This document shows positions 1,807 to 25,717 of a stretch of DNA of 41,604 nucleotides, in pieces. How positions within the stretch are numbered: position 1 is the stretch's first letter; every line of letters begins with the position of its first letter. The translations under genes were made by a program, and so were the position numbers. The notes under the pieces were generated by a model. The model had not been told where the DNA came from. It did not search any database and worked only from the letters and a program-made list of their open reading frames with translations. Source of the DNA: a virus; the IMG/VR virus record IMGVR_UViG_3300050821_021707, positions 1 to 41,604 of that record; one strand, written 5' to 3'.

Positions 1807-3710
1807 CCACCCCGGCCGCCACCATCGTCGACTGGTACCGCCAGCGCCGGGCCAGCGCCGGCCCCTCCCGGCAGCGCATGGCCCAGCTGCGCGACATCTA
1901 TTACGGCGACGTCCAGGTCCCCCTGCCCGAGCTGGACCGCAACGAGGCCGCGGCGGTGGCCAACCTCATCGCCCAGGGCCTGGACCAGATGGCCATGCGG
2001 GTGGCCTCCACCCTGCCGTCGGTGCTCTACACCCCGACCAAGCCGGGGTCGGTGCGAGCCGAGGACTTCGCCCGCCGCCGGGCCCTGGCCACCTACTCCT
2101 GGTGGCAGCTGAACCGCTTCGATCGCCTGCAGCGCAAACGGGCCCGCTGGATCGTGGGCTACGCCGCCGCCCCGGTGGTTATGCGCCCCAACTTCAAAAA
2201 GCAGATCCCGGCCTGGCAGCCCGTCGACCCGCTCACCACCTTCCCGGCCCCCATGGACCCGGTGGACCTGATCCCGGCCGACTGCATCATGGCCTTCAAA
2301 CGGGCCCTGGCCTGGCTGGACCGCACCTACCCGACCCAGATCCGCCAGCTCAGCCTGGGCCAAAACCCCAGCCCCGACACCGAGATCGAACTGGTGGAGT
2401 ACGTCGACGACGAAGAGCACGTGCTCATCGCCATCGGCCAGGCCCCCGAGCAGCCCCACATGGTGTGGGGCAGCGTGCCCAAGGCCAGCGGCAAGCCCTT
2501 CGTGGAGTTGACCCGCTTCCCCAACCGGCTGGGCCGCTGCACCGTGGTCTACCCCACCCGGCCCTCCCTCGGCGAGCCCATCTCCCAGTTCGACGGCATG
2601 CCGGCCCTGTACAAAACCCAGGCCCGGGCCATGGCCCTGTGGCTGATCTCGGCCGAGCGGGCCATCTTCCCCGACACCTGGTTCATCAGCCGCCCCAACG
2701 AGACCGTCGACATCATCGAGGAGCCCGACGGCCGGGCCGGCATCGTGGGCCGGGTCAAAGGCGGCGACCTGCGCGAGGTCACCGCCGCCCCGAGCCCCCA
2801 GACCGGCCAGATCGTGGACCTGCTGGAACGCAACCAGCGCGTCACCGCCGGCATCTCCCCCGACTTCGGCGGCGAGGCCCCCACCAACGTCCGCACCGGC
2901 CGAGCCGGCGAGCAATTGCTCAGCGCCACCGTGGACTTCTGGGTGCAGGAAGCCCAGGAGACCCTGGCCCTGTCCTACCAGGAGGAGAACGCCCTCGGCA
3001 TCAAGATCATGCGGGAGTACTTCGGCTCCGAGCACAAGTTCTTCGTGGTCAACTTCGCCAAGGTCAAAGGCCAGGCCGACTACATCCCGCTCATCCACTT
3101 CGAGTCCGACACCAACGTGGTGTCCTTCCCCCACGCCGGGGCCGACGCCAACAGCCTGGCCATCGGGCTGGGCCAGCGCCTGGGGCTCGGAGAGATGTCC
3201 ATCCGCACCGCCCAGGACATGGACCCCTACATCGACGACTCCGAACGCGAGCACCGTCGCATCACCACCGAGTCCATGGAGAAGGCCATGCTCTCGGCCC
3301 TGGAGCAGGCCATCGCCGCCGGCCAGATCGGCCCCCTCGAGGTGGCCCGCATGGTGGAGCTGGTCAAAACCGGCCAGATGCAGATCTACGAGGCCTTCCA
3401 GAAGATCCACGACGAGATCCAGGCCCAGGCCCAGGCGGCGCAGCCGGGCCAGGGACCTGGGGCTCCGCCCGGTTTGCCGCCCGGCGGGGCCCCGGGGCCG
3501 GGTGGCCCGGCCCCTCCCGGGTTGGGGGGTCCGCCGCCCCCCGGAGGGCCCGGAGGAGGTGGGCCGCCCGGCCTGATGGCGCCCGGCGTGGCCGCCCAGC
3601 TGGGCCTGGGTCAGCAGAACCCGCCCGGCCAGACGCTGGCCGCCCCCACCCCGGGGGTGCAGCACATGGCTCAGCTGTTCTCCGCCCTGCGGCCTCGAAG
3701 GGTGAGCTGA
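1803..3710 (+). CDS. Portal protein
   Basis: 635 residues, a typical portal length. It is the dodecameric ring at the packaging vertex through which DNA enters and leaves. The N-terminus (residues 1-75) has the helical pattern seen before the portal stem, including RDIYYGDVQVPLP and LIAQGLDQMAMRVAS. The mid part, with GMPALYKTQARAMALW and a polar wing, resembles phage portals in arrangement. The last about 80 residues are a low-complexity Pro/Gly tail, unusual for a portal. Position directly after the terminase and two small genes supports the call. Identification rests on context and overall pattern more than on one diagnostic motif. Confidence 0.8.
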   Translation: MTTPAATIVDWYRQRRASAGPSRQRMAQLRDIYYGDVQVPLPELDRNEAAAVANLIAQGLDQMAMRVASTLPSVLYTPTKPGSVRAEDFARRRALATYSWWQLNRFDRLQRKRARWIVGYAAAPVVMRPNFKKQIPAWQPVDPLTTFPAPMDPVDLIPADCIMAFKRALAWLDRTYPTQIRQLSLGQNPSPDTEIELVEYVDDEEHVLIAIGQAPEQPHMVWGSVPKASGKPFVELTRFPNRLGRCTVVYPTRPSLGEPISQFDGMPALYKTQARAMALWLISAERAIFPDTWFISRPNETVDIIEEPDGRAGIVGRVKGGDLREVTAAPSPQTGQIVDLLERNQRVTAGISPDFGGEAPTNVRTGRAGEQLLSATVDFWVQEAQETLALSYQEENALGIKIMREYFGSEHKFFVVNFAKVKGQADYIPLIHFESDTNVVSFPHAGADANSLAIGLGQRLGLGEMSIRTAQDMDPYIDDSEREHRRITTESMEKAMLSALEQAIAAGQIGPLEVARMVELVKTGQMQIYEAFQKIHDEIQAQAQAAQPGQGPGAPPGLPPGGAPGPGGPAPPGLGGPPPPGGPGGGGPPGLMAPGVAAQLGLGQQNPPGQTLAAPTPGVQHMAQLFSALRPRRVS

Positions 3711-3711
3711 T

Positions 3712-4212
3712 ATGCCCCGGGTGCGCCAGGCGCCGGGGGGCATGCGGCCGGGCACCCCGGGCCAGCAATACCCCAACCGGACCGACCTGTCCTCCCAGCC
3801 CAGCCTGCCGGCCCGGGTGGCCACCGACCAGACCTACGGCAAGGCCCAGCAGCAGCTGCAGGCCCAGCGCACGGTGCCCATGGCCCCGCCGCCCAGCCTT
3901 ATCCCGCCACCCGGCGCTGGGCCGGCGGGGCCACCTCCGGCTCCCACCGCGCCGGGGCCGGCTATCGGCGGCCCGCCCCCGCCCCCCGGTCCCGGCGCCC
4001 TCGGCCCCGTCGACGCCTTCACCAACCGCCCGGGCGAGCCGGTCACCCACGGCGCCCCCATGGGCGTCGGCCCCGGCCCGGAGGCTTTGCCCACCATGGC
4101 GGTGGCCGCCCCCGGCCTGGGTCTCTCGGCGCTATTGACCCAGGTGGCCCAGGCCACCGGATCCTCGGCCGTTCAGCAACTGGCCAATCACGCCGTCGCC
4201 AACGGGCAGTAG
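3712..4212 (+). CDS. Proline-rich, low-complexity protein
   Basis: 166 residues rich in Pro, Gly and Ala, with several runs such as PPPPPGPG. The final about 35 residues (LSALLTQVAQATGSS) look helical. The start follows the portal stop after one base. Its composition resembles the portal's own Pro/Gly tail, so the two may be parts of one flexible region split between genes, but that is inference. It may be a virion linker or assembly factor; no family is recognised. Confidence 0.6.
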   Translation: MPRVRQAPGGMRPGTPGQQYPNRTDLSSQPSLPARVATDQTYGKAQQQLQAQRTVPMAPPPSLIPPPGAGPAGPPPAPTAPGPAIGGPPPPPGPGALGPVDAFTNRPGEPVTHGAPMGVGPGPEALPTMAVAAPGLGLSALLTQVAQATGSSAVQQLANHAVANGQ

Positions 4213-4215
4213 GCC

Positions 4216-7200
4216 GTGAGCGACCTCGGTCTCATGTTGGCGGCGGCCGCCGGGGCGGCCCCGGGCTCGAGCCCGGAGGTGGCCTCGGCCATCGCCTCCT
4301 CCGCGGCCAGCCCCGACGACGCCGCCATCGCCACCCAGGCCGTGGCCCACTACGTCAACTCGGCGGTGCAGGCCGGGCAGCTGTCGGCCCAGCCCCTGGG
4401 GGTGCAGCAACAGGCCTACGGCAGCGCCCCGGTCGGCATCCAGAACAGCCTGCAGGCGGCCGGCTACCAGCCTCCGCTGCAGGCCCCCCCGCCACCGGCG
4501 CCCGGCCATGAGGGGTTGTTCGGACGCCTGGTCCACGACGTGGTCTCCAACCCGGTGACCCGGCTGGTCTCCCGGGTGGCCACCGCCCCGGTCATCGGCG
4601 GCGCCCTGCACGCCATGGGCACGCCGCTGCGCTTCGAGCAGCACCTCGAGCGGACGGCCTACGACGTGGCCAACCAGGCCACCACCGGCGGCGAGGGGGG
4701 ATTCCTCGGCAACGCCCTGGCCGGGGCCATCCAGACCCTGCCCGGCGGGGTCGAAGCCGGCACCGCCATCGGCACCATCTCCAATCCCAGCCAGCTGGGC
4801 CCGACCTTCTCCAAGCTGATGAACGTGCCCGAATGGGCCCGGGCCTTCGACGAGACCAGCAACGGCACCAAGTTCATCCTGCCCCAGGTCACCCGGCAGG
4901 TCTCAGCCCAACTGGATCCCAACGACTACGCCCTGGCCTACAAGCTGGCCACCGGGGCCACCCCGGACCAGATCGTCAAGGCGGCCGCCCCCGCCGATCA
5001 GGCCGCCATCGCCCAGAAGCTGACCGACCCGGCCATCACCAAAGCCGTATCCCAACTCAACGCCGGCCACGTGTCGGTGGGGCGGATGCTGGTCGGCGAA
5101 CACTTCCTGGTCAACCACCCCGACGCCGGCAACGTCCTCTCCGGCGGCATCGACGGCCTGATGGACTGGTACTCCGACCCCACCCTGCTGGGCGGCAAGC
5201 TGGCCAAAGGGGCCCAGACGGCCCGGTTCCTGGTCCGCAACGCCGACGACGTCCGCCGCCTGGCCGCCGATAGCGGATCCACCGGCGTAGCGGTCCGCAA
5301 AAGCCTCGACGACATCGCCAGCAAACTGGCGGCCGGCGACCAGGTGGGGGTGATCAGAAACTACGGGGGCCTGGCCCCGGTCGTCGATGACATGGCCCAG
5401 CGGGGGCTGGACACCCCCGACAAGGTCCTCAACTATTTCGCCGACGACCTGGCCGGGACCATGGCCATCATCAAAGGCAACCCGGCGCACGTCATGGGCT
5501 TCGATGGCGGCGTCATGCCCCACCTGTCCCGGGTGGGCATGGCCAAGGTGGCGGTCAAGGAGCAGCTGACCAAAGCCATCAACTTCGCCGACGACGGCCC
5601 GGCCACCATCACCGGCCTCGGTCCCGACGACACCGTGGCCACCGGCGGGTCCGGACCGGTCACGGCCATCAAGATCGGGGCCCAAAACGCCGTCCGCCAG
5701 GCCGGCTACACCGCCGCCGCCACCGCCCGGCGGGCCCTGACGTTGGTCCACCCCGGCGACACCTTTGATTCCGGCGCCCCCGACGCGGTGGCCAAGTTCC
5801 GCAACATCGCCATGTACGGCCTGACCCCCCAGGCCGCCGACCGGCTGACCAACGCCTTCGCCGCCACCACCAACGTGGGCATGAAGAAGGCCATCTACTT
5901 CGGGATGATGAAGGAGCTGGCCGAACGGGAAGGGGCCGGGGGCGAAGCCTCCGAGATGTTCGACCAGTACATGCGCTCCTTTACCTCCCACGGCGAGGGC
6001 GAGAACGCCATGCGGCTGTACTCGCCCAACGGCGAAGACCTCTTCGACGTCGACGGCCAGCAAACCCACGCCGGCATCCTCGAGGGCGAAGCCAACGAGC
6101 GCTGGGCCGTGCCCGACTTTCGCACCTACTACCTCAACTCCAAGAAGGTCGGTTTGCTGCGCCGGGTCACCGGCCCCATCAACGCTGACTTCCTGGGCCG
6201 GTTCATGGACCCCTGGCGGGCCCTGACCCTGGCCCGGGTGGGCTTTGCGCTCCGGGCCGGCGGCGAGGAGGCGGTTCGCTTCGGGCTGTCCGACGGCTTT
6301 CGCAACTGGATCAGCGCCCGGGTGGCGGGCTCGGGCGCCTCCGCCGCCGACCGGCTGGCCCAAATAGCCGAGCGCAGCCCCGAAGAGGTGGCTGATGCGG
6401 CCAAGACCGACGCCGACAAAGCCGCCTTCGAGCAGGTGGCCGGCAGCCTGCCTACCGGGGTGTTGGCCACCTTGAAGACCCCCAAGGACGTGGTGGTGGC
6501 GCATATGCGCCAGGTAGTGTCGAACTCGCTGGCCAAGGTGACCAACCGGCTGTCCGACAACGACTACGGCTACGGCCTGTCCAAACTCTACGACCACGAC
6601 GTGCTCGGCTCCGAGGCCTTCGCCAAACACATCTCGGCCTCCGAGCGCGGCTACGAGGTCGGCGGCCGCCCGGTCCAGAAGGTGCTGAGGGAAGGCAAGC
6701 TCCTAAACGCCGAGCTGTCCGACACCGGCAACTGGCGGCAGATGAAGGTGGGCGACCCCCACTATCTGATGGCCTACAAACGCCAGCTGGACAGCCTGGC
6801 CAACAGCGCCTGGGCCCGCACCTCCATGACGTTGCGCGACGCCGATCCCATCGTCCGGCAGAACCAGGTGGCCGACCTGATCCAGCGCTACCCCAAGCTG
6901 TGGCAACGCTTCGTGCGCTCCCAGGGCACGCGCGACGGCAGCCTGATCGCCACCGGCGAGACCACCGAACGCGACGCCGCCATGGATCACGCCCAGGCCG
7001 TCAACGAACTGGTCGACGCCCACCTGTACTCGCCCAACGGGGACGAGATCCAAGGCCTGGCCGACCATCTGCTCGAGAACCGCAAAGCCCCGTCGGTGGA
7101 GGCGCTGGGCGAGATCGACCCCGACCTGCGGCCCGAGCACGTCAAAGGCCCGGAGCAGATCCCGGTGCTGACCGCCAACGGCGGCCTGTTGACCCAGATG

Positions 7201-9102
7201 GCCAACCGGGTCTTCGAAAAGGCCATCGGCCCCATGATGGACTGGATTTCCCGCCAGCCCATGTTCATCCACAACTACACCGCCTCCCGGGCCGCTCTCG
7301 AGGGGCCGGGCGGGCTGGCCGAACGCTGGACCCAGGCCGGATTCCACCCCGACACCATCGAGCAGATGGTGCACGACAACGCCATGGACCGGGCCATGAG
7401 CCTGACCACCCCGTTCATCCACGACCCGGAACTCAAATCCCAGTTCTCCACCCTGACCCGCAACCTCATGCCCTTCTGGTTCGCTCAGGAGCAGTTCTAC
7501 AAACGCTGGGCCCGCACCGCGGTGGTGGCGCCCTGGGCCTTCCGTAAGGCGCAGCTCATCAACTCCGGCCTGCAGCACACCGGGGTGTTGCACACCGATC
7601 CCCAGACCGGCCAGGAGTACTTCGTCTACCCGGCCTCGGGGGCGGCGCTCGACGTGCTGACCCACGCCGCGGCGGTGACCGGCATGAAAGCCACCTTGCC
7701 CATCCCGGGGGCGCTGACCGGCCAGGTCAATCAGATCAACCCGGGCCTGGAGCGGGTCGGGCTGCCTAACTTCGGGCCGTTCGTCACCGCCCCGCTCAAT
7801 CAGATCAAAAGCATGGACCCGGCCCTGACCAGCCTGATCGACAAGATCGAGGGCTCTCAGTCGGCCTCGGCCGGCACCCTCAAGCCGTTCGTGCCCACCA
7901 CCCTGCAGCGCCTGATGACCGTGGTCGACCCCTCTTCGACGTTCGGTTCGGGCCAGTACGCCTCGGCCCAGATGCAGGCCTTGCAGCAGCTGGAGGCCAC
8001 CGGGCACGGCATCGGCGAAGCCCCGGTCAACTACCTGGGCCAGACCACCACCACCGGCCAGCCGGCCGGGCTGCCCGGCAAACCCGGCGACTACGTGACC
8101 GACCAGGGCGGCACCGACTGGGTCATGCAGGGCGACGGCACCTGGCGCCAGAACAACGCCCAGGCCCTGCAGACGGAAATGAACCGGGTCAAAAACTGGA
8201 CCCGCAACCTGCTGCTCCTGCGATTGGTGGTCGGCTTCGGGGCCCCGGCCTCGCCCGAAACCCAGTTCGACGCCAACCATCTCCACGACGACCTGCAAAA
8301 GAACCTGCGTCAGCTGCCCTTCAACGAAGCCCTGAACGCCTTCATCGCCCAGCACCCCGACGCCACCCCCTACACCGTCTTCCAGACCAAAACCGCCGGC
8401 AACACCGTGCCGCCGGCCACCGCCGGGGCCATGAACTTCATGGACGCCAACAAAGGCTTCATGGACGCCCACAAGATGGCCGGCAGCTTCTTCCTGCCCC
8501 AGCCCGACACCTCCGGGGATTTCAACCTGGCCGCCTACCAGGAGCAGCTGCACGAAGGCATGCGGATCAAAAAGACCCCGCAGGAGTTCGCCGACGACGT
8601 CATCTACGCCATGTCGGCCAAAACCTTCTTCGACCAGGACGACCTCTACCACCAGATGATCGCCGGCATGCCCAGCAACAGCGCCCAGCGCCAAACCCTG
8701 GACCAGCAGTGGTCGGCCTGGTCCAACCAGTTCCTGGCCGTCAACCCCATCTTCGCCGACCAGATGTCCTCGAGCACCGGGTCCACCACCCGGGCCCAGG
8801 TCATGCACGACGTGGCCGCGGCGCTGTCGGATCCCCGCCTGCCCGCGGGTCCGACCACCGACGACGTCCGCACCCTCTACGGGCAGTGGCAGCTGTGGCA
8901 GAACATGATCGCCACCACCGCCGGCACCAACGCCCCGCACCTGTCGTCGGCCACCAAAGCCGCCGTCAACCTGCAGTTCGCCCAATGGGCGGACGGCTTC
9001 GCCAAAGACCACCCCGACGTCCAGGCCCTCTACAACAAGGCCATCCGGCCCGGGTTCACTCCCACCATCCAGAGTCAGCTAGCCGGGGAGGCGACGACGT
9101 AA
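4216..9102 (+). CDS. Giant virion (internal/ejection) protein
   Basis: 1628 residues from a GTG three bases after the previous stop; the largest gene here. It is Ala-rich and largely helical, without a recognised enzyme motif. A recurrent-looking segment GGIDGLMDWYSDPTLLGG lies near residues 310-327. The segment LMPFWFAQEQFYKRWAR is near 1090, a short hydrophobic stretch (NLLLLRLVVGFGAP) near 1330, and the last 250 residues are strongly helical. Size would suit a tape measure, but no tail-tube or chaperone genes flank it, and it sits between portal and scaffold beside peptidoglycan hydrolases. An internal protein ejected with DNA, as the gp15/gp16-type proteins of podoviruses are, is the best inference. 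Function is unproven. Confidence 0.7.
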   Translation: MSDLGLMLAAAAGAAPGSSPEVASAIASSAASPDDAAIATQAVAHYVNSAVQAGQLSAQPLGVQQQAYGSAPVGIQNSLQAAGYQPPLQAPPPPAPGHEGLFGRLVHDVVSNPVTRLVSRVATAPVIGGALHAMGTPLRFEQHLERTAYDVANQATTGGEGGFLGNALAGAIQTLPGGVEAGTAIGTISNPSQLGPTFSKLMNVPEWARAFDETSNGTKFILPQVTRQVSAQLDPNDYALAYKLATGATPDQIVKAAAPADQAAIAQKLTDPAITKAVSQLNAGHVSVGRMLVGEHFLVNHPDAGNVLSGGIDGLMDWYSDPTLLGGKLAKGAQTARFLVRNADDVRRLAADSGSTGVAVRKSLDDIASKLAAGDQVGVIRNYGGLAPVVDDMAQRGLDTPDKVLNYFADDLAGTMAIIKGNPAHVMGFDGGVMPHLSRVGMAKVAVKEQLTKAINFADDGPATITGLGPDDTVATGGSGPVTAIKIGAQNAVRQAGYTAAATARRALTLVHPGDTFDSGAPDAVAKFRNIAMYGLTPQAADRLTNAFAATTNVGMKKAIYFGMMKELAEREGAGGEASEMFDQYMRSFTSHGEGENAMRLYSPNGEDLFDVDGQQTHAGILEGEANERWAVPDFRTYYLNSKKVGLLRRVTGPINADFLGRFMDPWRALTLARVGFALRAGGEEAVRFGLSDGFRNWISARVAGSGASAADRLAQIAERSPEEVADAAKTDADKAAFEQVAGSLPTGVLATLKTPKDVVVAHMRQVVSNSLAKVTNRLSDNDYGYGLSKLYDHDVLGSEAFAKHISASERGYEVGGRPVQKVLREGKLLNAELSDTGNWRQMKVGDPHYLMAYKRQLDSLANSAWARTSMTLRDADPIVRQNQVADLIQRYPKLWQRFVRSQGTRDGSLIATGETTERDAAMDHAQAVNELVDAHLYSPNGDEIQGLADHLLENRKAPSVEALGEIDPDLRPEHVKGPEQIPVLTANGGLLTQMANRVFEKAIGPMMDWISRQPMFIHNYTASRAALEGPGGLAERWTQAGFHPDTIEQMVHDNAMDRAMSLTTPFIHDPELKSQFSTLTRNLMPFWFAQEQFYKRWARTAVVAPWAFRKAQLINSGLQHTGVLHTDPQTGQEYFVYPASGAALDVLTHAAAVTGMKATLPIPGALTGQVNQINPGLERVGLPNFGPFVTAPLNQIKSMDPALTSLIDKIEGSQSASAGTLKPFVPTTLQRLMTVVDPSSTFGSGQYASAQMQALQQLEATGHGIGEAPVNYLGQTTTTGQPAGLPGKPGDYVTDQGGTDWVMQGDGTWRQNNAQALQTEMNRVKNWTRNLLLLRLVVGFGAPASPETQFDANHLHDDLQKNLRQLPFNEALNAFIAQHPDATPYTVFQTKTAGNTVPPATAGAMNFMDANKGFMDAHKMAGSFFLPQPDTSGDFNLAAYQEQLHEGMRIKKTPQEFADDVIYAMSAKTFFDQDDLYHQMIAGMPSNSAQRQTLDQQWSAWSNQFLAVNPIFADQMSSSTGSTTRAQVMHDVAAALSDPRLPAGPTTDDVRTLYGQWQLWQNMIATTAGTNAPHLSSATKAAVNLQFAQWADGFAKDHPDVQALYNKAIRPGFTPTIQSQLAGEATT

Positions 9103-10704
9103 ATGGTTGCATCCACTTCTGCTCCCGGCGTGGCCATCGTCCCCGGCAGCGCCGACACCCCTCCTGGCGCCCAGCCTGGCACCGCCGTCACCCAGGCCGG
9201 CGGCGCCACCCAGCCGCTGTTCACCCAGGGCGGCACCGGGGCCGGCCTGTCGGCCCAGCCCACCGTCTTCTCGCCCGGCCAGGGGGCCTCCCCCTACTTC
9301 TTGAACCAGGTGGAGTCCTCCAACCAGGTCAACGTCAGCAGCGACATGGCCACGGTGCTGGGCATACCGGCCGGGACCTATCACATCGGCGATTTGCTGA
9401 ACGCCTTCAATCATCTGGACCGAGCCCACCTGGTCACGCTGCAGTCCATGCTCAGCAAAGGCGGCTTCTACTCCGGTACCGGCGGCACCCCGGGCACAGC
9501 CCAATCCATGGGCACCGTCGACGACGCCAGCTTCTCGGCGTTCACCGACGCCCTGCTGCAGGCCAGCCAGAACGGCCAGAGCCTGGACACCACGGTGGCC
9601 ACCGGTATCGGCACCGGGGCCGGATCGCAGCCTCAGGGCAGTCCCATCATGGGCGGCGGCAACACCTACCAGGTGGACCTGACCAACCCCGCCGACCTGG
9701 CCTACACCGCCCACACCATCTTCCAGGCCGCCCTCGGCCGTAACCCCACCGCGGCCGAGCTGGCCCGGCTCACCTCCACCATGCAGGGCGAACAGAGCAC
9801 CTACCAGACGGCCAAGAACACCCAGGCGGAGACGGCCAGCCAGGCTAAATACCAGGCCGACGTGTCCGCCGAGCAGGCCCAGAAAGCCCCCCAGCTCAGC
9901 CTGGGCGACATTCCGGCCGGGCCCTTCAAGGACATCAACCAGTGGGCCACGGCCCTGCTGCAGTACATGAATGATCCCATCACCACTTCCAACGTGGCCA
10001 CCATCGTGGGTTTGGTCAATGCCACCGGCGGCGACCTGGCCAGCAACAACCCGCTGCGGATCACCCTCGAGAAGCCGGGCTCCAGCCAGACCGGCGGCGG
10101 CACCACCCCCACCCCCCAGAAGTACGCCAGCGCCGCCGACGGCATGCAGGCCACGGCCCAGACTCTGGCCGAATACCCGTGGCTCCTGGCCGCCCTGCAG
10201 CAGGGCACGGCTCAGTCGGTGCTGGGCAAATCTCAGGTCCAGGGCGAGATCAGCCAGCTGACCGGCGGCAAAGCCAAGGACATCACCGCCGATGTCGGGG
10301 CGGCCCAGACCGCGGCGGAGGCGGCGGTCAAGCAGTACACCCCTCCGACGCCCACTCCGGCGGTGACCCACCAGGGGATGCGCCGCCTCGGCGACGACCA
10401 GGGCGAGGCCCAACCAATCGGCCAGCCGACGGTGGCGGCTACCGCCCCTCCGGCGCCGGCCCAGGCCTCTCCGGACATGCTCAGCCCCAGCGAACTGCAA
10501 ACCCAGCAGGGGGCGCTGCCGGCCGGCTCGCAATACATCGCCCCCACCACCCTGACCCAGACGGCGCCGCCCGACCCCAGCGCCCTGGCCTTCCAGCAGG
10601 CCACCACCGGCGCCAACCAGATCCCCTACGAGGGCTACCAGTACCTGCAGGCCTTCAACGCCATCATGCAGATGGTCCACGCCAACACCACCCAGGGCGG
10701 CTGA
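9103..10704 (+). CDS. Virion protein with degenerate lysozyme-like domain
   Basis: 533 residues; ATG directly abuts the previous TAA. Residues about 195-225 contain ALGRNPTAAEL, a helical motif like those of DUF4214-type modules, then a Gln/Ala-rich helix to about 262. Residues 278-375 align with the N-terminal domain of the next protein (WATALLQYM, SSNNPL-like and GMQATAQTL segments). Where that protein has the candidate catalytic Glu (AEGG), this one has Thr308 (ATGG), so it is probably catalytically dead. The C-terminus is Pro/Gln-rich. It is probably an internal or ejection protein; the pseudo-enzyme reading rests on my hand alignment. Confidence 0.65.
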   Translation: MVASTSAPGVAIVPGSADTPPGAQPGTAVTQAGGATQPLFTQGGTGAGLSAQPTVFSPGQGASPYFLNQVESSNQVNVSSDMATVLGIPAGTYHIGDLLNAFNHLDRAHLVTLQSMLSKGGFYSGTGGTPGTAQSMGTVDDASFSAFTDALLQASQNGQSLDTTVATGIGTGAGSQPQGSPIMGGGNTYQVDLTNPADLAYTAHTIFQAALGRNPTAAELARLTSTMQGEQSTYQTAKNTQAETASQAKYQADVSAEQAQKAPQLSLGDIPAGPFKDINQWATALLQYMNDPITTSNVATIVGLVNATGGDLASNNPLRITLEKPGSSQTGGGTTPTPQKYASAADGMQATAQTLAEYPWLLAALQQGTAQSVLGKSQVQGEISQLTGGKAKDITADVGAAQTAAEAAVKQYTPPTPTPAVTHQGMRRLGDDQGEAQPIGQPTVAATAPPAPAQASPDMLSPSELQTQQGALPAGSQYIAPTTLTQTAPPDPSALAFQQATTGANQIPYEGYQYLQAFNAIMQMVHANTTQGG

Positions 10705-10705
10705 G

Positions 10706-12238
10706 GTGGCCATCCCGAATCGCGTCGGCGACAACAGTCCGCCGCCCCCCTCGGCGCAGGCCTCCTACGACATCGCCAATATCTCCACCCCGGATTCCTG
10801 GGCCCGGACCCAGTTGCAGTACATGGGGCTGCCGGTCACCTCCTCGAATGTGGCCTTCCTGGTCAGCTGGGCCGCGGCCGAGGGCGGCAACTGGCGCAAC
10901 TCGGCCACCTTCAACCCCCTGAACACCACCCAGCGCGAGCCCGGCAGCCAGGTCATGTTCGGCGGCAACTCGGCCGGGGTGCAGGCCTACACCTCCTGGC
11001 AGATGGGCCTGTCGGCCACCGCCAACACCCTGAACAACGGCTTCTACCCGCAGATCATGGCCGCCCTGCGCTCCGGCAACGCCTCGGCCTACAACGCCTC
11101 AGGGTCGCTCAACGGCAACCTGCGGACCTGGGGGACCGGGTCGGTGCCGGCCAACACCTCCTACGGGTCGATCACCAGCCCCGGCGTTGGCGGCGGGGCC
11201 AACGCCGGTGGCACCAGTTCCATCATCACCGGCCCGGGGGCCCCGGCCCAGGTGGGCGGCGGCGCGCCAGGCGGCACAACGCCAGGTGGTGGTGGCGCCA
11301 TGCCGGCCGCGCCGCCCATCACCAACATCCCGGCGCTGGACGCCTACATCCGCCAGAACTACCCCCAGGACGCCTGGCTGCTGGATGTGCCCGAGGTCCG
11401 CCGCACCATAGAGACGGCGGTGTCCCAGGGCCTGTCCACCGACCAGGTCCAGGCTCAGCTGCAGCAGACGGGCTGGTGGAAACGCACCTCCCAGGCTCAG
11501 ATCGCTTTCCTCCAGCTGCAGCATCAAACGCCCGAGGAACTCAACTTCAACGATCCGGGCTCGAAAATCAGCTCGGTCCTGGCCAACGTGACCAATATCG
11601 GTTCCACCATCGGGTTCCCGGTCAACACCGTGGTGGGCCGGACGGTGGCGCTGGAGGCGATGCGCTACGGCTGGTCGAACCAGCAGATACAGACCAAGTT
11701 GGGCAGCCTGGTGCACGTCATGCCCACCGGGCCGGGGGCCAATGTCGGCGTGACCTCCAATGACCCGCAGGTGCTGGCGCAGCTGACCAAAGCGGCCGGC
11801 ACCTATCTGGTCAATCCCAACTTCGTCACCCTCAACACTTACGCCAATCGCATCGCCCGGGGCGCCGCCACCGAGGCCGACTGGGAGGCCTACCTGAAAG
11901 GCCAGGCGGCGGCCAAATATCCGTCCATGGCCGGCCAGATCGCCCAGGGCATGACCCCGGAGCAGATCGTCGACCCCCTGCGCCAGGACGCGGCCCGGCT
12001 GATGGAGGTCAGCCCCGACGCCATCAACTTCATCGCCGATCCCACCTACGCCAGGATCCTCACCTACCGGCCGCCTGATGCCGGCGGCAAGGTGCAGCCC
12101 ATTCGCACCATGACCAACTCGGAGATGGAAACCTACCTGCGGGGCACCGGGGCTTACGGCTACACCCAGAACGCCCGTAACGACGCCAGCGATCTGACCC
12201 AGTCCATTCTGACCACGCTGGGCAAGGTGGCCGGCTAA
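10706..12238 (+). CDS. Virion-associated peptidoglycan hydrolase, lysozyme-like
   Basis: 510 residues from GTG one base after the previous stop. Residues 29-150 form a lysozyme-like domain of the type common in actinophage lysins: WARTQLQYM, AAAEGGNW with candidate catalytic E59, FNPLNTT, and GVQAYTSWQMGL followed by YPQIMAALRSG. A Gly/Ala linker (155-205) leads to a helical module (208-510) that is duplicated in the next gene. The domain should cut the glycan strand of the wall during DNA entry. Its place among virion genes, far from the endolysin, argues for a particle component rather than a lysis enzyme. Confidence 0.72.
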   Translation: MAIPNRVGDNSPPPPSAQASYDIANISTPDSWARTQLQYMGLPVTSSNVAFLVSWAAAEGGNWRNSATFNPLNTTQREPGSQVMFGGNSAGVQAYTSWQMGLSATANTLNNGFYPQIMAALRSGNASAYNASGSLNGNLRTWGTGSVPANTSYGSITSPGVGGGANAGGTSSIITGPGAPAQVGGGAPGGTTPGGGGAMPAAPPITNIPALDAYIRQNYPQDAWLLDVPEVRRTIETAVSQGLSTDQVQAQLQQTGWWKRTSQAQIAFLQLQHQTPEELNFNDPGSKISSVLANVTNIGSTIGFPVNTVVGRTVALEAMRYGWSNQQIQTKLGSLVHVMPTGPGANVGVTSNDPQVLAQLTKAAGTYLVNPNFVTLNTYANRIARGAATEADWEAYLKGQAAAKYPSMAGQIAQGMTPEQIVDPLRQDAARLMEVSPDAINFIADPTYARILTYRPPDAGGKVQPIRTMTNSEMETYLRGTGAYGYTQNARNDASDLTQSILTTLGKVAG

Positions 12239-13645
12239 ATGGCCGTCAGCTGGAACGCCCTTTACAGCTACGCCCATTCGCTGGTCGGCACCCCCTACCT
12301 TTACGGCGGCACCGGCCAGGGGGGCTTCGACTGCTCGGGGTTCACCGAGGCGGTGTACGCCAAGCAGGGCCTGCAGATCGGCCGGACCACCGTCGACCAG
12401 CTGCAGTCCGGCCAGGCCGTCGGCCAGGACGGCAACTGGCAGACCGACATCGCCCAGCTCCAGCCCGGCGATCTCATCTTCTACGGCCAGGCCGGGGCCT
12501 CAGGACCGAACGCCCACGTGGTCATGTACGTCGGCAACAACCAGGTCATCCAGGCCGGCGGCAAAAACGTCAACGTCACCAGCCTGTTCCAGTCGGCCTC
12601 GCCGAACGAGCCCTTCCTGGGGGTGCGCCGCTACACCCAGCTGTCCGGCGCCCCGCCCGGCGGGGCCAGCGGGGCGGCCGGGATCGGCCCGCCCGGGAAC
12701 ACCTCGGCGCCGAGCGCCCCGTCCATGTCGGACATTCCCGCTCTGGACGCCTACATCAAACAGAACTACGCCCAGGACGCCTGGCTGCTAGCCGAGCCCG
12801 AGGTCCGCAGCCTGCTCGAGTCGTCGGTGGCGCAAGGCCTGACCGCCGATCAGATCCAGGCCAAACTGCAGCAGACGGGCTGGTGGAAGAAAACCTCCCA
12901 GGCCCAGATCGCCTTCGACCAGCTGCGCAACCAAACCCCCGACGAGCTGAACTTCAACGACCCGGGATCCAAGGTCAACGCGGTGCTGGCCAATGTGACC
13001 AACATCGGCTCGACCATCGGCATCCCGGTCAACACGGTGGTCGGTCGCACCGTGGCTCTCGAGGCCATGCGTTACGGGTGGTCCAATCAGCAGATCCAGG
13101 CCAAGCTGGGCTCGCTGGTGTCGGTGACACCGTCGGGCCCGGGGGCCAACGCGGGCGTCACCTCCAACGACCCGCACATGCTGGCCCAGCTGGAGCAGGC
13201 CGCCGGCCAGTACCTGTACAACCCCAGCCAGGCCACCCTCAACACCTACGCCCGCGGTATCGCCTCGGGCACCATGACCATGGACACCTTCAACGCTTTC
13301 CTGGCCAATCAGGCGGCCACCAAATACCCCAGCCTGGCGGAGCAGATCAAAGGGGGCATGACCCCGGCTCAGATCATCGATCCGCTTCGGACCGAGGCGG
13401 CCAACACCATGGAAGTCAGCCCCGACTCCATCAACTTCATCGCCGACCCCACCTACGCCAAGATCCTGAACTACCGGCCCCCGGCGGTCAACGGAGCCCA
13501 GCAGGCCCCCCGGGTGATGACCACCTCGGAGATGGACACCTACCTGCGCGGCACCGGCGCCTACAGCTACACCCAGAACGCCCGTAACAGCGCCTCCGAT
13601 CTGACCGACGCCATTGTCAAAACCTTCGGAAAGGTGGCGAGTTAA
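12239..13645 (+). CDS. NlpC/P60 peptidase fused to shared virion module
   Basis: 468 residues; ATG abuts the previous TAA. Residues 5-135 are an NlpC/P60 cysteine peptidase, with the nucleophile C32 in FDCSGF, H93 in NAHVVMYVG, and Q105 as possible third residue. Such enzymes cut peptide stems of peptidoglycan. A Gly/Pro/Ser linker follows. Residues about 166-468 repeat the C-terminal module of the preceding protein; in the first 58 aligned residues I count 43 identities. The pair therefore offers two different cuts, glycan and peptide, on the same scaffold. It is likely a virion component used to open the wall at entry. Confidence 0.85.
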   Translation: MAVSWNALYSYAHSLVGTPYLYGGTGQGGFDCSGFTEAVYAKQGLQIGRTTVDQLQSGQAVGQDGNWQTDIAQLQPGDLIFYGQAGASGPNAHVVMYVGNNQVIQAGGKNVNVTSLFQSASPNEPFLGVRRYTQLSGAPPGGASGAAGIGPPGNTSAPSAPSMSDIPALDAYIKQNYAQDAWLLAEPEVRSLLESSVAQGLTADQIQAKLQQTGWWKKTSQAQIAFDQLRNQTPDELNFNDPGSKVNAVLANVTNIGSTIGIPVNTVVGRTVALEAMRYGWSNQQIQAKLGSLVSVTPSGPGANAGVTSNDPHMLAQLEQAAGQYLYNPSQATLNTYARGIASGTMTMDTFNAFLANQAATKYPSLAEQIKGGMTPAQIIDPLRTEAANTMEVSPDSINFIADPTYAKILNYRPPAVNGAQQAPRVMTTSEMDTYLRGTGAYSYTQNARNSASDLTDAIVKTFGKVAS

Positions 13646-13648
13646 CTC

Positions 13649-14524
13649 ATGGTCGCATCCGCGTTCCCGACCCAGCGGGCCCCCGCCTTCACTTCCACCG
13701 AGCAGTCGGCTTGGGCCCAGCTGCAGCAGACGCTGGGGGCCTACGGCTTCTCCGGGGCCGACCTGGTGGCCCTCACCAACTGGGCCAAGACCGAGCTGAT
13801 CGCCGGCAAGGACTCCAACCAGATCGCCCTGGACCTGCAGAACACCCCCCAGTTCGTCAAACGCTTCCCGGCCATCGTGGCCCGTCGCAACGCCGGCCTG
13901 CCCCCGGTCAGCCCGGCCGAGTACCTGTCGCTGGAATCGTCCTACGCCCAGCTGGAGACCGCCGCCGGCCTGCCCCGCAACTTCGCCTCCTACGACGCCC
14001 TCATCGCCAACGACGTGTCGCCCACCGAGTACGCCGACCGCCTCAACCAGGGCTACCTGGCCGTAGCCCAGGCCGACCCCGAGGTGGTGAAAGCCTTTCA
14101 GGATTACTACGGGGTGACCAAAGGCCAGCTGGCGGCGTGGTTCCTCGACCCCAAGAAGACCGAGCCCATGCTGCTCCAGCAGGCCGCCGCGGCCCAGGTG
14201 GGCGGAGCCAGCGCGGGGTCGGGGTTCGGCGAGGTGTCGTCGGCGGAGGCCACCCGCCTGGCCCAGATGGGCGTCAACTTCTCCCAGGCCCAGCAAGGCT
14301 TCCAGAAGCTGGCCGGCGAGAGCCAGCTGTACCGGGGCCTGCCCGGCCAGTCCGAACCGCAGCTGACCGACGACCAGCTCCTAAACGCCCAGTTCGGCTC
14401 CGACGCCGCCACCCAGCTGGAACTGCAGCGCCGGGCCGGCTACGAGACCGGCACCACCGCCGCCGGCACCCAGGTGGCAGGCACCAGCACCGGGGCCACC
14501 GGCCTCGGGACGGTGCAGCGTTGA
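13649..14524 (+). CDS. Helical virion protein, likely internal
   Basis: 291 residues, ATG three bases after the previous stop. It is helix-rich with Gln/Ala. It carries a pattern I have seen in internal or tail proteins of uncultured phages: FVKRFPAIVARRNAGLP, then AEYLSLESSYAQLETAAGLP, then NDVSPTEYADRL. Its first half loosely resembles the DQIQAKLQQTGWWK segment of the two preceding proteins. It closes the block of five probable ejection proteins before a 171-base gap and the scaffold gene. The role is inferred from position and pattern. Confidence 0.6.
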   Translation: MVASAFPTQRAPAFTSTEQSAWAQLQQTLGAYGFSGADLVALTNWAKTELIAGKDSNQIALDLQNTPQFVKRFPAIVARRNAGLPPVSPAEYLSLESSYAQLETAAGLPRNFASYDALIANDVSPTEYADRLNQGYLAVAQADPEVVKAFQDYYGVTKGQLAAWFLDPKKTEPMLLQQAAAAQVGGASAGSGFGEVSSAEATRLAQMGVNFSQAQQGFQKLAGESQLYRGLPGQSEPQLTDDQLLNAQFGSDAATQLELQRRAGYETGTTAAGTQVAGTSTGATGLGTVQR

Positions 14525-15199: not shown

Positions 15200-16174
15200 A
15201 TGGCGCTCACCGTCCAGGCGTCCACCGACTTCGCCCAGAAGGCCTACGAGCTGCTGGCGTTCTACGCTCTGCGGCCCGAGCTGTACTTCGACAGCGTCGC
15301 CGATGTGCGCCCCACCAACCAATCCCAGCCCGGCTCGTCGGTGCAGTTCACCATCGTGGCCGACTTGGCGATTGCCTCCACGCCGCTCAACGAGTCCGTC
15401 GACGTCACCCCGGTGGCCCTCTCGGACACCACCGTGCTGGTCACCCTGCTCGAGTACGGCAACGCCGTGACCACCACCGCCCTGGCCCGGGGCACCTCGT
15501 TCGTCAACCTGGATCCGGTGGTGGCCAACGCGGTCGGCTTCAACGCCGGCATCTCGGTCGACACCGTCACCCGCAACGTGCTGACGGCGGGGACCAACGT
15601 GGCCTACGCGGCCGGCGACGGCTCCAACGTGGCCACCGCCCGAAACCAGATAGTGCCGAAGAACACCCTGGTGGCTTCCGATATCCGGGCCGCCCGGGCG
15701 GTGCTGGCCCGCAACAACGTGGCCAACATCGGCGGCTACTACATGGCCTTCATCCATCCCGACACCGCCTTCGACCTGCGAGGCCAGACCGGCACGGCCA
15801 CCTGGAACGAGCCCCACGCCTACTCCAGCCCGGAGAACATCTGGACCGGCGAGATCGGCTCCTTCTCCGGGTTCCGTTTCATCGAAACCCCCCGGGTGCA
15901 GATCTTCGCCGACGCCGGCTCCGGTCCGGCCACCACCGACGTCTACGCCAACCTGTTCATGGGCCGCCAGGCCCTGGCCAAGGCCTACTCCTACGTGGAC
16001 GGCAACGGCGAGTACCCCCTGGTGGTGCCCGGCCCGGTGGTGGACTCGCTGCGGCGCTTCGTGCCCATCGGCTGGTACGACCTGGTCGGCTACGGCATCT
16101 TCCGTCAGGCCGCCCTGCTGCGCATCGAGTCGGCCAGCTCCATCGGCAAGAACGCTTCTGCCGGCAGCAACTGA
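15200..16174 (+). CDS. Major capsid protein, N4-gp56 type
   Basis: 324 residues with AGGAGA upstream of the ATG. It forms the icosahedral shell. The sequence fits the N4-gp56 branch of HK97-fold capsid proteins: an N-terminal helix (TDFAQKAYELLAFYALRPEL), the characteristic LLEYGNAVTTTALARG segment near residues 80-95, helices with LVASDIRAARAVLARN near 155-170, and a C-terminal part rich in short strands. Length is normal for the family. Its stop shares a base with the next ATG (TGATG). This capsid type occurs in both podoviruses and siphoviruses, so it does not decide tail type alone. Confidence 0.82.
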   Translation: MALTVQASTDFAQKAYELLAFYALRPELYFDSVADVRPTNQSQPGSSVQFTIVADLAIASTPLNESVDVTPVALSDTTVLVTLLEYGNAVTTTALARGTSFVNLDPVVANAVGFNAGISVDTVTRNVLTAGTNVAYAAGDGSNVATARNQIVPKNTLVASDIRAARAVLARNNVANIGGYYMAFIHPDTAFDLRGQTGTATWNEPHAYSSPENIWTGEIGSFSGFRFIETPRVQIFADAGSGPATTDVYANLFMGRQALAKAYSYVDGNGEYPLVVPGPVVDSLRRFVPIGWYDLVGYGIFRQAALLRIESASSIGKNASAGSN

Positions 16175-17973: not shown

Positions 17974-18774
17974 ATGGCATTACGCACCGATCTCACCGAC
18001 AACACCGTGGCCGCCACCGTGCACGCCGACCAGCACAACCAGGTCAACGGGGCGGTGCTGACCCTGCAGACCACCGGCGGACCCCCGGGCCCGCCGGGCG
18101 CGCAAGGCCCCCAGGGGCCGACCGGACCGCAGGGAGCGACCGGGCCGCAAGGGGCGACCGGCTCGCAGGGACCGCAAGGAGCGACCGGGTCGCAGGGCCC
18201 GCAAGGAGCGACCGGACCGCAGGGCCCCCAGGGGGTGTCGGCACTGGGGCAGGCCGCTGGCGACTGGATACAGCCGCCGGGGGGCATCTCCGGCGTCTAC
18301 GTGGGGGCCAACAACACCATGTACGTCACGCCGATTTACATCGCCCCGGGTCGCTCCATCGCCAACTTCTCCACCAACGTGTCAACCGCCGGAGCGGCCG
18401 GGGCAGTCCTCCGCTTCGGGATCTACGCCGATAACAACGGGGTGCCCGGGACTCTCATCGTCGACGCCGGGACGGTCATCACCACCGCCACCGGCACCGT
18501 CTCAATCGCCGGGGGCTCCCCGGCGGCCCTCCAGGCCGGCGGCATCTTCCACATCGCCTGCTGCCCGCAAGGCTCGCCCACCACCCAGGCCACGTTCTTC
18601 CAGTCGACCGGCGACCCGCACACCAAATATCCGACGGCGGCGTCGAGCGTGGTCAACGCCCAGACCATCGGGATCGTCTCAGGGGTGTCCGGCGCCCTGC
18701 CCAACCCGGCCATCCCCACTCGCACCCTGTCGCCGTTCGGTCAGATGCCGGCTCTGTCGGTGCAACTGTCGTGA
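17974..18774 (+). CDS. Collagen-like tail fibre or spike protein
   Basis: 266 residues; ATG abuts the previous TAG. The N-terminus ([20 protein letters not shown]) resembles the virion-anchoring start of many phage fibres. Residues 36-86 are 17 uninterrupted Gly-X-Y triplets, rich in GPQ, GAT and GSQ, which would form a collagen-type triple helix and so a trimer. The C-terminal about 175 residues form a beta-rich head with [15 protein letters not shown], a jelly-roll-like pattern, likely the receptor-contacting or trimerisation part. It lies in the tail gene block. Confidence 0.72.
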
Positions 18775-19118
18775 CCCACGACGGCAGCCACGAAAACTGC
18801 TTCGGCTGCAAGCTCCGGACCATCCAGTTCGGCGCCGCCCCGGCGCCCCAGACGTTGATGGAGCGGCGCTGGGAGGCGGACATGCCGGCCTACGCCCGGC
18901 TCCGCCGGGACGGGCTGCAGCCGCGGGGCATCGACGGCTCGGCCGAACTCGAGACCAACCTCAACCACGGCCAGCTGGAGGTGGACATGCGCCATCTCTT
19001 CAACGAGAACTTCGGGGCCAAGGATCTGCCCCGCCTGGCCGACACCATGGAAGAGGTCAAGAGCACCGGCTGGGAGCCGCGCGATTCCATCGAGGATTAC
19101 CGGGAGAAGCAGCGGTGA
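18771..19118 (+). CDS. Small NCFGCKL-type actinophage protein
   Basis: 115 residues from a GTG overlapping the previous stop (GTGA). The N-terminal motif [13 protein letters not shown], a CxxC pair before a short strand, is typical of a small protein family found near tail or head genes in actinobacteriophages. A helical C-terminal part contains the segment [18 protein letters not shown]. It overlaps the glycosyltransferase start by four bases (GTGA). Function is unknown; the lone CxxC could bind metal or act in redox chemistry. Confidence 0.6.
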
Positions 19119-20401
19119 CCGCCCACGTGCTGTGGACGCATACCACCCGCACCGGCTACGGCCGCTACGGCTCCAAGCTGGCCGGGGCCCTGCGCCGGGG
19201 CGGCTACCGCTTCTCCGAGACGCTCACCCCCGACGACAACCCCGGCCATCTGGCCGTGTGGATTAGCACCCCCAACCACGCCCGGGGCTTCTTCGAGGGC
19301 CAGCGCACGGTGCTGTCGACCATGTGGGAAACCGAGCAGCTGCCGGAAAGTTTCCGCGAGGGGCTCGGCAACTTCGACCAGATCCTGGTCCCCTCCGAGC
19401 AGAACCTGGCCCTGTTCTCGCAGTACCACGACAACGTGGCCAAGGTGCCGCTGGGGGTGGACGCCTGGGATTGGCGGTACCGGCCCCGTCAGGCGCCGTC
19501 CACCCGCTTCGTGTTTCTCATCTGCGGCAACAGCAACCGCAAAGGCCTGGACCTGGCCGTGGCCGCCTACACCCGCCTGTTCCGCAGCTTTCCCCGCAAG
19601 TCGCCCCGGCCGGTGCTGATCATCAAATCGACCGAGCCCTACGACACCCAGGGCCTCAACGACGGCGTCCAGAACGTGACCGGCTGGCTGAGTGACTACG
19701 AGGAGCAGGAGCTGTACGCCTCGGCCCACTGCTATCTGCAGCCGTCGCGCGGCGAGGGCTTCGGCCTGATGCCGCTGCAGGCCATCGCCCAGGGCTGCCC
19801 CACCATCCTGACCGCGGCCCACGGCCACGCCGAGTTCGCCAACCTGGGCTGGCCCGTCAAAGCCGGCCGCTCCGAGGCCGACTATTTCATCCACGGCGAC
19901 GGCGGCCAGTGGTGGGAGCCGGACCTGGACCAGCTGTGCGCCCGCATGGACGAGGTCTACCGCGACTACGACCTGGCGGCCAAGGAGGCCAAGGTGTCCT
20001 CCGACCTGGCCCACCAGGTGTTCAGCTGGGAGCGCTGCGCCGAGCGCACGGTGGAGGCCATCGGCGAGGACCACTTCTACACCCCCTACGCCGGCTCGGG
20101 GGCCTGGAAGGTGGCCGACATCGTCCGCTACCCGGTCATCGTGGCCAACTTCTGGGCCTGCGAGGTGGCCGGCGCCCACTACCAGTTCCACCCCGGCCGC
20201 ACCTATTACGAGACCGCCGACGTCAAACGCATCCTGTACGAGGCCAACCTGTTGGACCCGGCCTGCGTGGACCCGGGCCACCCCGACGCCAGCGGCCTGA
20301 CCGCGGCCCAACTGGAGCGCTTCGGCGACTACAGCGCCTCCCAGTCCTACTGCCATCACTGCGGCCAGAAACTCGGATCCGGGGAGATGTACCAGCCGTG
20401 A
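19115..20401 (+). CDS. Glycosyltransferase, GT-B (GT4-like), with Cys-pair tail
   Basis: 428 residues from GTG. It should move a sugar from an activated donor to an acceptor. The N-terminal Rossmann half starts with HVLWTHTTRTGYGRYG. The C-terminal half has the hallmark donor-binding pattern: QPSRGEGFGLMPLQAIAQG, an E-x7-(E/Q)-like motif near residues 210-228, after LILKS- and GWLSDYEEQELY-type segments. The last 25 residues add a CHHCG pair not usual in the family. Its place inside the tail operon, coupled on both sides, suggests it modifies virion proteins rather than DNA or host wall; that is inference. Confidence 0.78.
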   Translation: MTAHVLWTHTTRTGYGRYGSKLAGALRRGGYRFSETLTPDDNPGHLAVWISTPNHARGFFEGQRTVLSTMWETEQLPESFREGLGNFDQILVPSEQNLALFSQYHDNVAKVPLGVDAWDWRYRPRQAPSTRFVFLICGNSNRKGLDLAVAAYTRLFRSFPRKSPRPVLIIKSTEPYDTQGLNDGVQNVTGWLSDYEEQELYASAHCYLQPSRGEGFGLMPLQAIAQGCPTILTAAHGHAEFANLGWPVKAGRSEADYFIHGDGGQWWEPDLDQLCARMDEVYRDYDLAAKEAKVSSDLAHQVFSWERCAERTVEAIGEDHFYTPYAGSGAWKVADIVRYPVIVANFWACEVAGAHYQFHPGRTYYETADVKRILYEANLLDPACVDPGHPDASGLTAAQLERFGDYSASQSYCHHCGQKLGSGEMYQP

Positions 20402-24770: not shown

Positions 24771-24854
24771 ATGTCTGACGTGACCCCGGATCCCGAGCCC
24801 GCCCCCGAGCCCGACGAGGAGCCGAGCCATCCGCCCACCACACCGGAGGACTGA
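24771..24854 (+). CDS. 27-residue acidic Pro-rich peptide
   Basis: ATG at 24771 has AGGAG at 24760-24764 upstream. The peptide is nearly all Pro, Glu and Asp (DPEPAPEPDEEPSHPP) and its TGA shares a base with the endolysin ATG (TGATG). It may be a real small protein or mainly a coupling leader for endolysin translation. No family can be assigned. Confidence 0.4.
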   Translation: MSDVTPDPEPAPEPDEEPSHPPTTPED

Positions 24855-25717
24855 TGGCGCTCCAGCGTCTATGGATGCCCAGCCCCTGCTACTCCAGCCG
24901 GGGCGGCTCGAAGGTCCGCCTGATCGTGGTGCACACCAGTGAAGGGGCGCAAACAATCCAGTCGCTGGCGAACTGGTTTGCCAACGCCGGCAATCAGGTG
25001 TCGTCGCACACCGGGATCGACAACGCTTCGGCCACGACCATCGGCGAGTACGTCAAGCGCGACCAGAAGGCATGGACCAGCGCGAATGCAAATCCGGTGG
25101 CGACCCAGACCGAGCTATGCACGCCGTCTGGGGCGGCTCAAGGCTGGTCGGCGGCGACGTGGGCGGCCCAGACCAACATGCTGGCCGCCTGCAGCGCCTG
25201 GATCGCCGAGGAGGCCGCAGCATTTGGCATCCCCATCGTCAAGCTGACCCCCCAGCAAGCTCAGGGCGGCTCGGCAGGCGTGTGCGGCCACGGCGACCTG
25301 GGGTCATGGGGAGGCGGCCACACCGATCCGGGCCCCAATTTCCCGTGGTCGCAAGTGATCGCCATGGCCACCGGGGGCACCGCGCCGGCCCCAGCCCCGC
25401 CGAAGCCAACCCCGACCCCGCCACCGGCAAGTACGGCCCCGCCCTTCCCCTGGCCGTCCGACAACTACATCGGGCCGCCCTCATCCGACCCGAAATGCCA
25501 CTCCGGTCACTACGGCCCGCCCGACTCGACTCAGGTAGCGAAGTGGCAGAGCCAAATGATCGCTCGGGGCTGGAGCCTGTCGGGCGGGGCTGATGGCGAC
25601 TACGGGCCCAGCTCGCAGAGCGCTTGCCGCCAGTTTCAGCAGGAGAAAGGGCTAGGCGTGGACGGACTCGTCGGACCCCAAACCTGGAGCGCCACCTGGA
25701 CCGCACCCGTCACCTGA
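24854..25717 (+). CDS. Endolysin: N-acetylmuramoyl-L-alanine amidase with PG-binding domain
   Basis: 287 residues. It cleaves the amide bond between N-acetylmuramic acid and L-alanine, to release progeny at lysis. Residues 20-170 are an Amidase_2/PGRP-type zinc enzyme: H27 in IVVHTSEG, H146 in CGHGDL and D158 in HTDPGPNFPW are the expected zinc ligands. A Pro/Thr linker (about 176-200) leads to a peptidoglycan-binding domain of the PG_binding_1 type (about 224-283; DGDYGPSSQSACRQFQQ and GVDGLVGPQTW). No signal peptide is seen, so export should depend on a holin. Small membrane genes surround it. Confidence 0.9.
   Translation: MALQRLWMPSPCYSSRGGSKVRLIVVHTSEGAQTIQSLANWFANAGNQVSSHTGIDNASATTIGEYVKRDQKAWTSANANPVATQTELCTPSGAAQGWSAATWAAQTNMLAACSAWIAEEAAAFGIPIVKLTPQQAQGGSAGVCGHGDLGSWGGGHTDPGPNFPWSQVIAMATGGTAPAPAPPKPTPTPPPASTAPPFPWPSDNYIGPPSSDPKCHSGHYGPPDSTQVAKWQSQMIARGWSLSGGADGDYGPSSQSACRQFQQEKGLGVDGLVGPQTWSATWTAPVT

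Follow-up and report, generated by a model that had tools for sequence, protein, structure and literature searches.

Adjacent phage genes carry an NlpC/P60 head and a probable glycan hydrolase head on copies of one duplicated module

Two adjacent genes in a viral DNA stretch of 41,604 nt (the whole of which we call the window) encode proteins that share a C-terminal module but have different N-terminal heads. One head belongs to the NlpC/P60 peptidase family, and the other is probably a glycan hydrolase. We consider it likely that the two proteins are virion peptidoglycan hydrolases that act at entry, with heads tethered by linkers to one docking module, and that this scaffold was duplicated and partly converted and its heads are replaceable. 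It is already known that phages carry both activities for entry, and a peptidase/glycosylase pair is annotated in the Beephvirinae. What we did not find described is the placement of both enzymes on one duplicated scaffold, its apparent recurrence, or the exchange of heads by fold. Our coverage of the literature was incomplete, and within it no paper described such lysins on a shared scaffold that had been duplicated.

RESULTS

Two abutting genes share a 303-residue module

The window is from a short-tailed-type actinobacterial phage. The two genes abut (stop at 12238, start at 12239) in a tight plus-strand operon, and their locus is flanked by portal and capsid genes (Table 1). The two module copies align over 303 residues without a gap. 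They are identical at 221 of these positions and 75% identical at the DNA level. An earlier note on this DNA had counted 43 identities in the first 58 aligned residues, which we reproduced exactly, and its coordinates and its shared 303-residue module were also right. The two proteins match each other with a BLASTP E value of 3e-161, which excludes likeness by chance.

Table 1. The gene pair, its domains, and other features of the window
Feature	Position	Strand	Remarks
1628-aa protein, position of giant Beephvirinae gp9	4216..9102	+	Possible ejection protein
533-aa protein, gp10 position of Beephvirinae; holds Glu-less head 1 copy	9103..10704	+	
Degenerate head-1-like domain within 533-aa protein, residues about 274-399; EGG changed to TGG, NPLNTT to NPLRIT	9922..10299	+	
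510-aa protein with EGG..NPLNTT head at N terminus, Gly/Pro-rich linker, and shared module at C terminus	10706..12238	+	Glycan-cutter slot
Head 1, uncurated phage hydrolase-like domain	10775..11164	+	Family invariants, including EGG Glu, all kept
Copy 1 of shared module, all-helical, 303 residues (208-510)	11327..12235	+	
468-aa protein with NlpC/P60 head joined by linker to shared module	12239..13645	+	Peptide-cutter slot
Head 2, NlpC/P60 cysteine peptidase domain, residues 17-120	12287..12598	+	Pfam
Copy 2 of shared module, 303 residues (166-468)	12734..13642	+	
291-aa protein, Beephvirinae gp13 homologue (phrog_8424)	13649..14524	+	Adjoins module genes in mapped loci
Major capsid protein (MCP), Phage_capsid_3	15200..16174	+	44% identical to FlowerPower MCP
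Separate endolysin, Amidase_2 and PG_binding_1	24854..25717	+	

Two other genes were observed nearby. The structural region encodes a collagen-like repeat protein (17974-18774; Pfam Collagen, 1.4e-9), and a family 4 glycosyltransferase gene (19115-20401; GT4-conflict, 1e-16) lies within the structural block that runs from capsid to tail genes.

The pair is a standing feature of the Beephvirinae and their relatives

The closest named relatives of the window were the Beephvirinae, which are podoviruses of Streptomyces. One of them, Abafar, is podoviral by electron microscopy (PMC11536984) and carries the module gene pair. The gene order in FlowerPower, Immanuel3, Manuel, WRightOn, Stella, and Dennebes is a giant gene, gp10, "peptidase," "glycosylase," gp13, tRNAs, a gene in the scaffold position, and MCP. 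The "peptidase" is an NlpC domain plus the module, and the "glycosylase" is an SLT domain plus the module. The window has the same order with the hydrolases swapped and no tRNAs between, and its 291-aa protein is 35% identical to the FlowerPower counterpart.

FlowerPower (NC_048706; cluster BF) gp11 and gp12 lie at the same locus as the window pair, have the same neighbors, and likewise put adjacent NlpC and glycosidase heads on a shared module, the two copies of which are 44% identical to each other. However, the NlpC gene comes first in FlowerPower, and its glycan head is of the SLT type and does not belong to the EGG..NPLNTT family that includes head 1. Also, Beephvirinae modules are only about 25% identical to those of the window and form a separate branch. 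The earlier note had presented the duplicated-scaffold pair as an event private to this phage. The pair is there, but it is a standing feature of the Beephvirinae, in which the proteins are annotated as peptidase/glycosylase or as minor tail protein, and of their relatives, with many environmental viruses having two such genes at this locus.

We surveyed the viral loci fetched for comparison (labeled with L-numbers here) with a module HMM. Used singly as queries against IMG/VR, the window proteins found only L010, and wider relatives were recovered with alignment queries. An NlpC-module gene paired with an SLT- or SLT_3-module gene was present in 49 fetched loci, and the NlpC gene came first in all 49. 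When 44 representative glycan-type heads were scanned, 33 matched Pfam SLT and 11 matched SLT_3 (the two sets may overlap). In the window and L010 this order is reversed, and the glycan head comes first. Artifact rows of the catalogue were left out of the pair counts. These included frame-shifted overlaps (L065, L035, and L038) and a split NlpC gene in Streptomyces phage JXY1 (L006). Also left out were three single-module proteins with no catalytic head (L048, L064, and L040), which had clustered with the SLT group through weak or low-complexity matches. The JXY1 NlpC-module gene (12001-13307) appears as two open reading frames; its relatives have one, so a frameshift in the deposit is likely.

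Several other layouts were found. In L010, the closest relative, the head in slot 1 is SLT_3 (5.9e-21), and the head in slot 2 is M23-like (1.8e-7; protein at 2592-4061). By eye, the M23-like head does not have the canonical His ligands (DQGWD, GWLEIG) and possibly has an inactive or altered metal site. This makes its activity doubtful, and conservation of the bond class of that slot is insecure there. In L011, the next relative, an NlpC module protein precedes the 291-aa homologue, and its upstream side is cut off. In L044 (2975-4030) and L045 (6544-7599), one protein fuses SLT and NlpC and lies immediately before a module protein that has a PG_binding_1 domain. L063 has an NlpC protein with an N-terminal sequence that is lysozyme-like by eye, upstream of a headless module, and L065 resembles this layout, with its module frame overlapping. 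Across the surveyed layouts, glycan-type and peptide-type domains tend to be present together.

The modules were duplicated and partly homogenized, and the heads were replaced

Modules of the Beephvirinae-like group fall into two clades in the module tree, one made up of those with NlpC heads (100/92) and one of those with SLT heads (95/81). By this tree, the group appears to have undergone one old module duplication. No head crossed between the two clades among headed rows (the placement of L078 and L047 is only partly settled). The L066 pair, with modules that are 64% identical, and the clade of the window, L010, and L011 lie apart from both. A tree constrained to unite all NlpC modules was rejected (AU p = 6e-31). 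This leaves two histories, at least three independent origins of the pair or homogenization of old pairs, and the reversed gene order favors an independent origin in the window clade.

The modules of the window clade are mosaics. In columns 143 to 276, copy 1 of the window groups with copy 1 of L010, and copy 2 groups with copy 2. This slot-specific grouping was found at 73% of the informative nucleotide sites in these columns versus 24% outside them (permutation p = 0.001). This shows that the duplication is older than the split between the window and L010, that the flanks were homogenized within each genome, and that the heads were replaced later. In slot 1, the window and L010 have heads of different families; in slot 2, the window and L011 both have an NlpC head, and L010 has an M23-like one. 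The earlier note had proposed duplication of a common scaffold and exchange of its heads. Both parts held up, the first in the module trees and the second in the SLT_3 and M23-like heads of L010. Comparison with related viruses suggests that the glycan-plus-peptide pairing arose more than once and that heads are exchangeable.

We also considered a single ancient duplication. The window pair would then be orthologous to the Beephvirinae pair, conversion would have erased the older divergence, and function would be unaffected. The pair does occupy the same locus in both groups, and the mosaic within the window clade is conversion-like. However, the two groups have opposite gene orders, without an exception among the 49 loci, and head 1 is from a different family than the Beephvirinae-like SLT heads. 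The rejection of one NlpC-module clade also stands against a single duplication, though conversion would produce this too. We regard a single duplication as rather unlikely and favor a separate origin of the pair in the window clade.

Head 2 is an NlpC/P60 domain and head 1 is probably a glycan hydrolase

The earlier note had assigned an NlpC/P60 head to the second gene, and this was borne out. Head 2 matched NlpC/P60 in Pfam (E = 2.8e-22), with Cys32 (in the motif DCSG) and His93 invariant among 36 homologues. Its relatives in the PDB include LytE, RipA, and others. Heads 1 and 2 did not align with each other.

Head 1 had no significant match in Pfam, PHROGs, or PDB sequences, and as a query on its own it found nothing in phage records or in a genome-contig scan. 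A DNA pattern for EGG(x)nNPLNTT found 57 viral stretches (L098-L154), mostly with one fixed spacing, which encode clear relatives. An alignment of 34 members of this family has 13 invariant residues, and all are kept in the window, including the Glu of EGG; the invariance of EGG and NPLNTT is partly circular, since members were picked by that motif. The family is about 120 aa long, widespread in phages, and absent from Pfam, and it occurs in tape-measure proteins, tail proteins, and small stand-alone proteins. The fusion partners of its members include NlpC/P60 (L112 and L137) and an M23 peptidase (L104; also L149, as judged from PHROG matches), and other members are inside tape-measure proteins (L140 and L133).

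AlphaFold2 (AF2) modeled the module of the full 510-aa protein well, but not head 1. Therefore, we folded head 1 alone (pLDDT 85.5, pTM 0.80). The best Foldseek match of this model in the PDB was 3fi7, the catalytic domain of the Listeria autolysin Auto, which we take to be a GH73 glucosaminidase, and the match was not significant (E = 1.2, prob 0.21). Because its relatives occur in fusions with NlpC or M23 peptidases and in tape-measure proteins, head 1 is probably a glycan hydrolase, possibly lysozyme- or GH73-like. The description of head 1 as "lysozyme-like" in the earlier note has indirect support in the family motif, the domain partners, and the weak GH73 match in Foldseek, and in these searches head 1 had no significant similarity to a curated lysozyme or glucosaminidase family.

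The gene upstream of the pair (9103-10704) encodes a second copy of head 1, which the earlier note had missed. It is 36 to 39% identical to head 1 and has lost the Glu (TGG). The L010 homologue of this 533-aa protein also has a head-1-like copy without the Glu. This common loss suggests that the domain in these upstream proteins may serve in binding. We rejected a derivation of head 1 from the upstream copy as improbable, since head 1 is up to 56% identical to domains of other phages versus 36% to the copy.

These Glu-less copies bear on another explanation, in which only one enzyme matters and head 1 serves for binding or structure. They indicate that noncatalytic versions of the head 1 fold are tolerated and kept, and among PDB sequences the family has no solved enzyme. 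However, head 1 itself keeps 13 of 13 invariant residues, it is nearer to the other family members than to the upstream copy, and the family is repeatedly paired with peptidases, whose usual complement is a glycan-cutting partner. We find a purely binding or structural head 1 quite unlikely, and a probable glycan hydrolase remains our assignment.

The module is best read as a virion scaffold

The module belongs to PHROGs 6654 and 34303, neither of which has a function annotation. The two window proteins match PHROG 6654 with E values of 2e-33 and 8e-40 and the Stella peptidase with BLASTP E values of 4e-18 and 2e-41. In the AF2 model of the 510-aa protein the module was confidently all-helical, with pLDDT mostly above 90 from residue 220, and residues 134 to 196, in the linker, had low predicted order. 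Foldseek with the module found no match in the PDB. Against viral models, it had significant matches only to a FlowerPower "minor tail protein" and to unnamed phage proteins. The earlier note had set against its proposal the case of a structure search returning a generic wall-binding domain of lysis enzymes, and the module matched no wall-binding family or fold in Pfam, the PDB, or Foldseek against PDB and viral models. Comparisons of the module with two neighbors, the 291-aa protein (profile comparison, prob 9) and the protein in the gp10 position, were unconvincing as evidence of homology, and we rejected both.

Members of PHROG 6654 include both headed and headless proteins. Many relatives have one module and no recognized head, including eight loci with such a single protein at the same locus (L012, L014-L019, and L021). 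In L028 and L047, the second gene is a headless module beside an NlpC gene. Since it is found without an enzymatic head, the module presumably has a structural, noncatalytic role of its own. The headless copies, the lack of a structural or wall-binding match in these searches, and the separate endolysin of the phage make a virion scaffold, rather than the binding domain of a lysis enzyme, the best reading of the module. Position beside portal and capsid genes is by itself no proof of presence in particles.

That the module is a wall-binding domain, and both proteins are lysis enzymes or released exolysins and not particle parts, is improbable: many endolysins do have a catalytic N-terminal head, a linker, and a conserved C-terminal domain, and the PG_binding_1 head on the L044 module protein means that wall binding occurs in this neighborhood, but the module resembles no wall-binding domain and is also found without enzymes, the locus lies between portal and capsid genes, the Amidase_2 and PG_binding_1 endolysin is distinct, and no signal peptide is evident by eye in either module protein.

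DISCUSSION

In phage phi29, a lysozyme domain in gp13 accompanies the peptidase, so that a single chain holds both the glycan cutter and the peptide cutter. In the window, each predicted cutter has its own copy of a shared scaffold. According to the citing passage in a later paper, phi29 gp13 is a tail-knob lysin, a virion peptidoglycan hydrolase that carries a peptidase for entry (Xiang et al. 2008, cited in PMC9662197). To that extent it is like the window pair, for which we infer a virion location, as a virion hydrolase of a short-tailed phage. T7 gp16 is an internal virion lytic transglycosylase of a podovirus (PMC6116005). It is a possible functional analogue for ejection, but, unlike the window pair, it is a single enzyme in a large core protein and has no shared module. 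In enterococcal myoviruses, a gene for a tape-measure protein with a lytic transglycosylase (TMP-LT) adjoins an NlpC/P60 tail gene. As in the window, a glycan cutter and an NlpC peptidase are encoded by neighboring structural genes; however, the available part of that report mentions no duplicated common scaffold (PMC10194240).

We propose that the module of the window proteins would anchor each enzyme in the particle, most likely together with the neighboring 1628-, 533-, and 291-aa proteins, and that flexible linkers would carry the N-terminal heads that open the cell wall during genome entry. Head 1 would cut glycan bonds and the NlpC/P60 head would cut peptide bonds, and the duplicated scaffold would let one head of each kind travel together. 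The two module copies were later partly homogenized through gene conversion, and other folds can replace the heads. Sequence comparison establishes the common module, the unlike heads with their linkers and conserved residues, the conserved locus, the duplications, the mosaic homogenization, and the replacement of heads; activity of the heads, a place in the virion, a role at entry, and co-assembly are inferred. The retention of headless paralogues and the homogenized flanks fit co-assembly of the pair, which the earlier note had raised as a possible hetero-oligomer cutting both bonds at one spot, but are no proof of it.

A broader proposal is that the virion has an entry complex in which the module serves as a dedicated tool-holder, kept as two co-assembling paralogues. 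Selection would keep one glycan head and one peptide head while their folds swap, conversion would keep the scaffolds compatible, and this arrangement would have arisen convergently at least three times (in the Beephvirinae-like group, in L066, and in the window clade). We offer this as a tentative idea, less likely than not to be true.

The EGG..NPLNTT proteins are a putative phage hydrolase family, uncurated and missing from Pfam. Together, the pairs form a natural series of putative phage entry enzymes: the scaffold is constant, the head changes, and the glycan-plus-peptide combination apparently recurs independently. This series makes it testable whether both bonds must be cut together for entry through thick walls.
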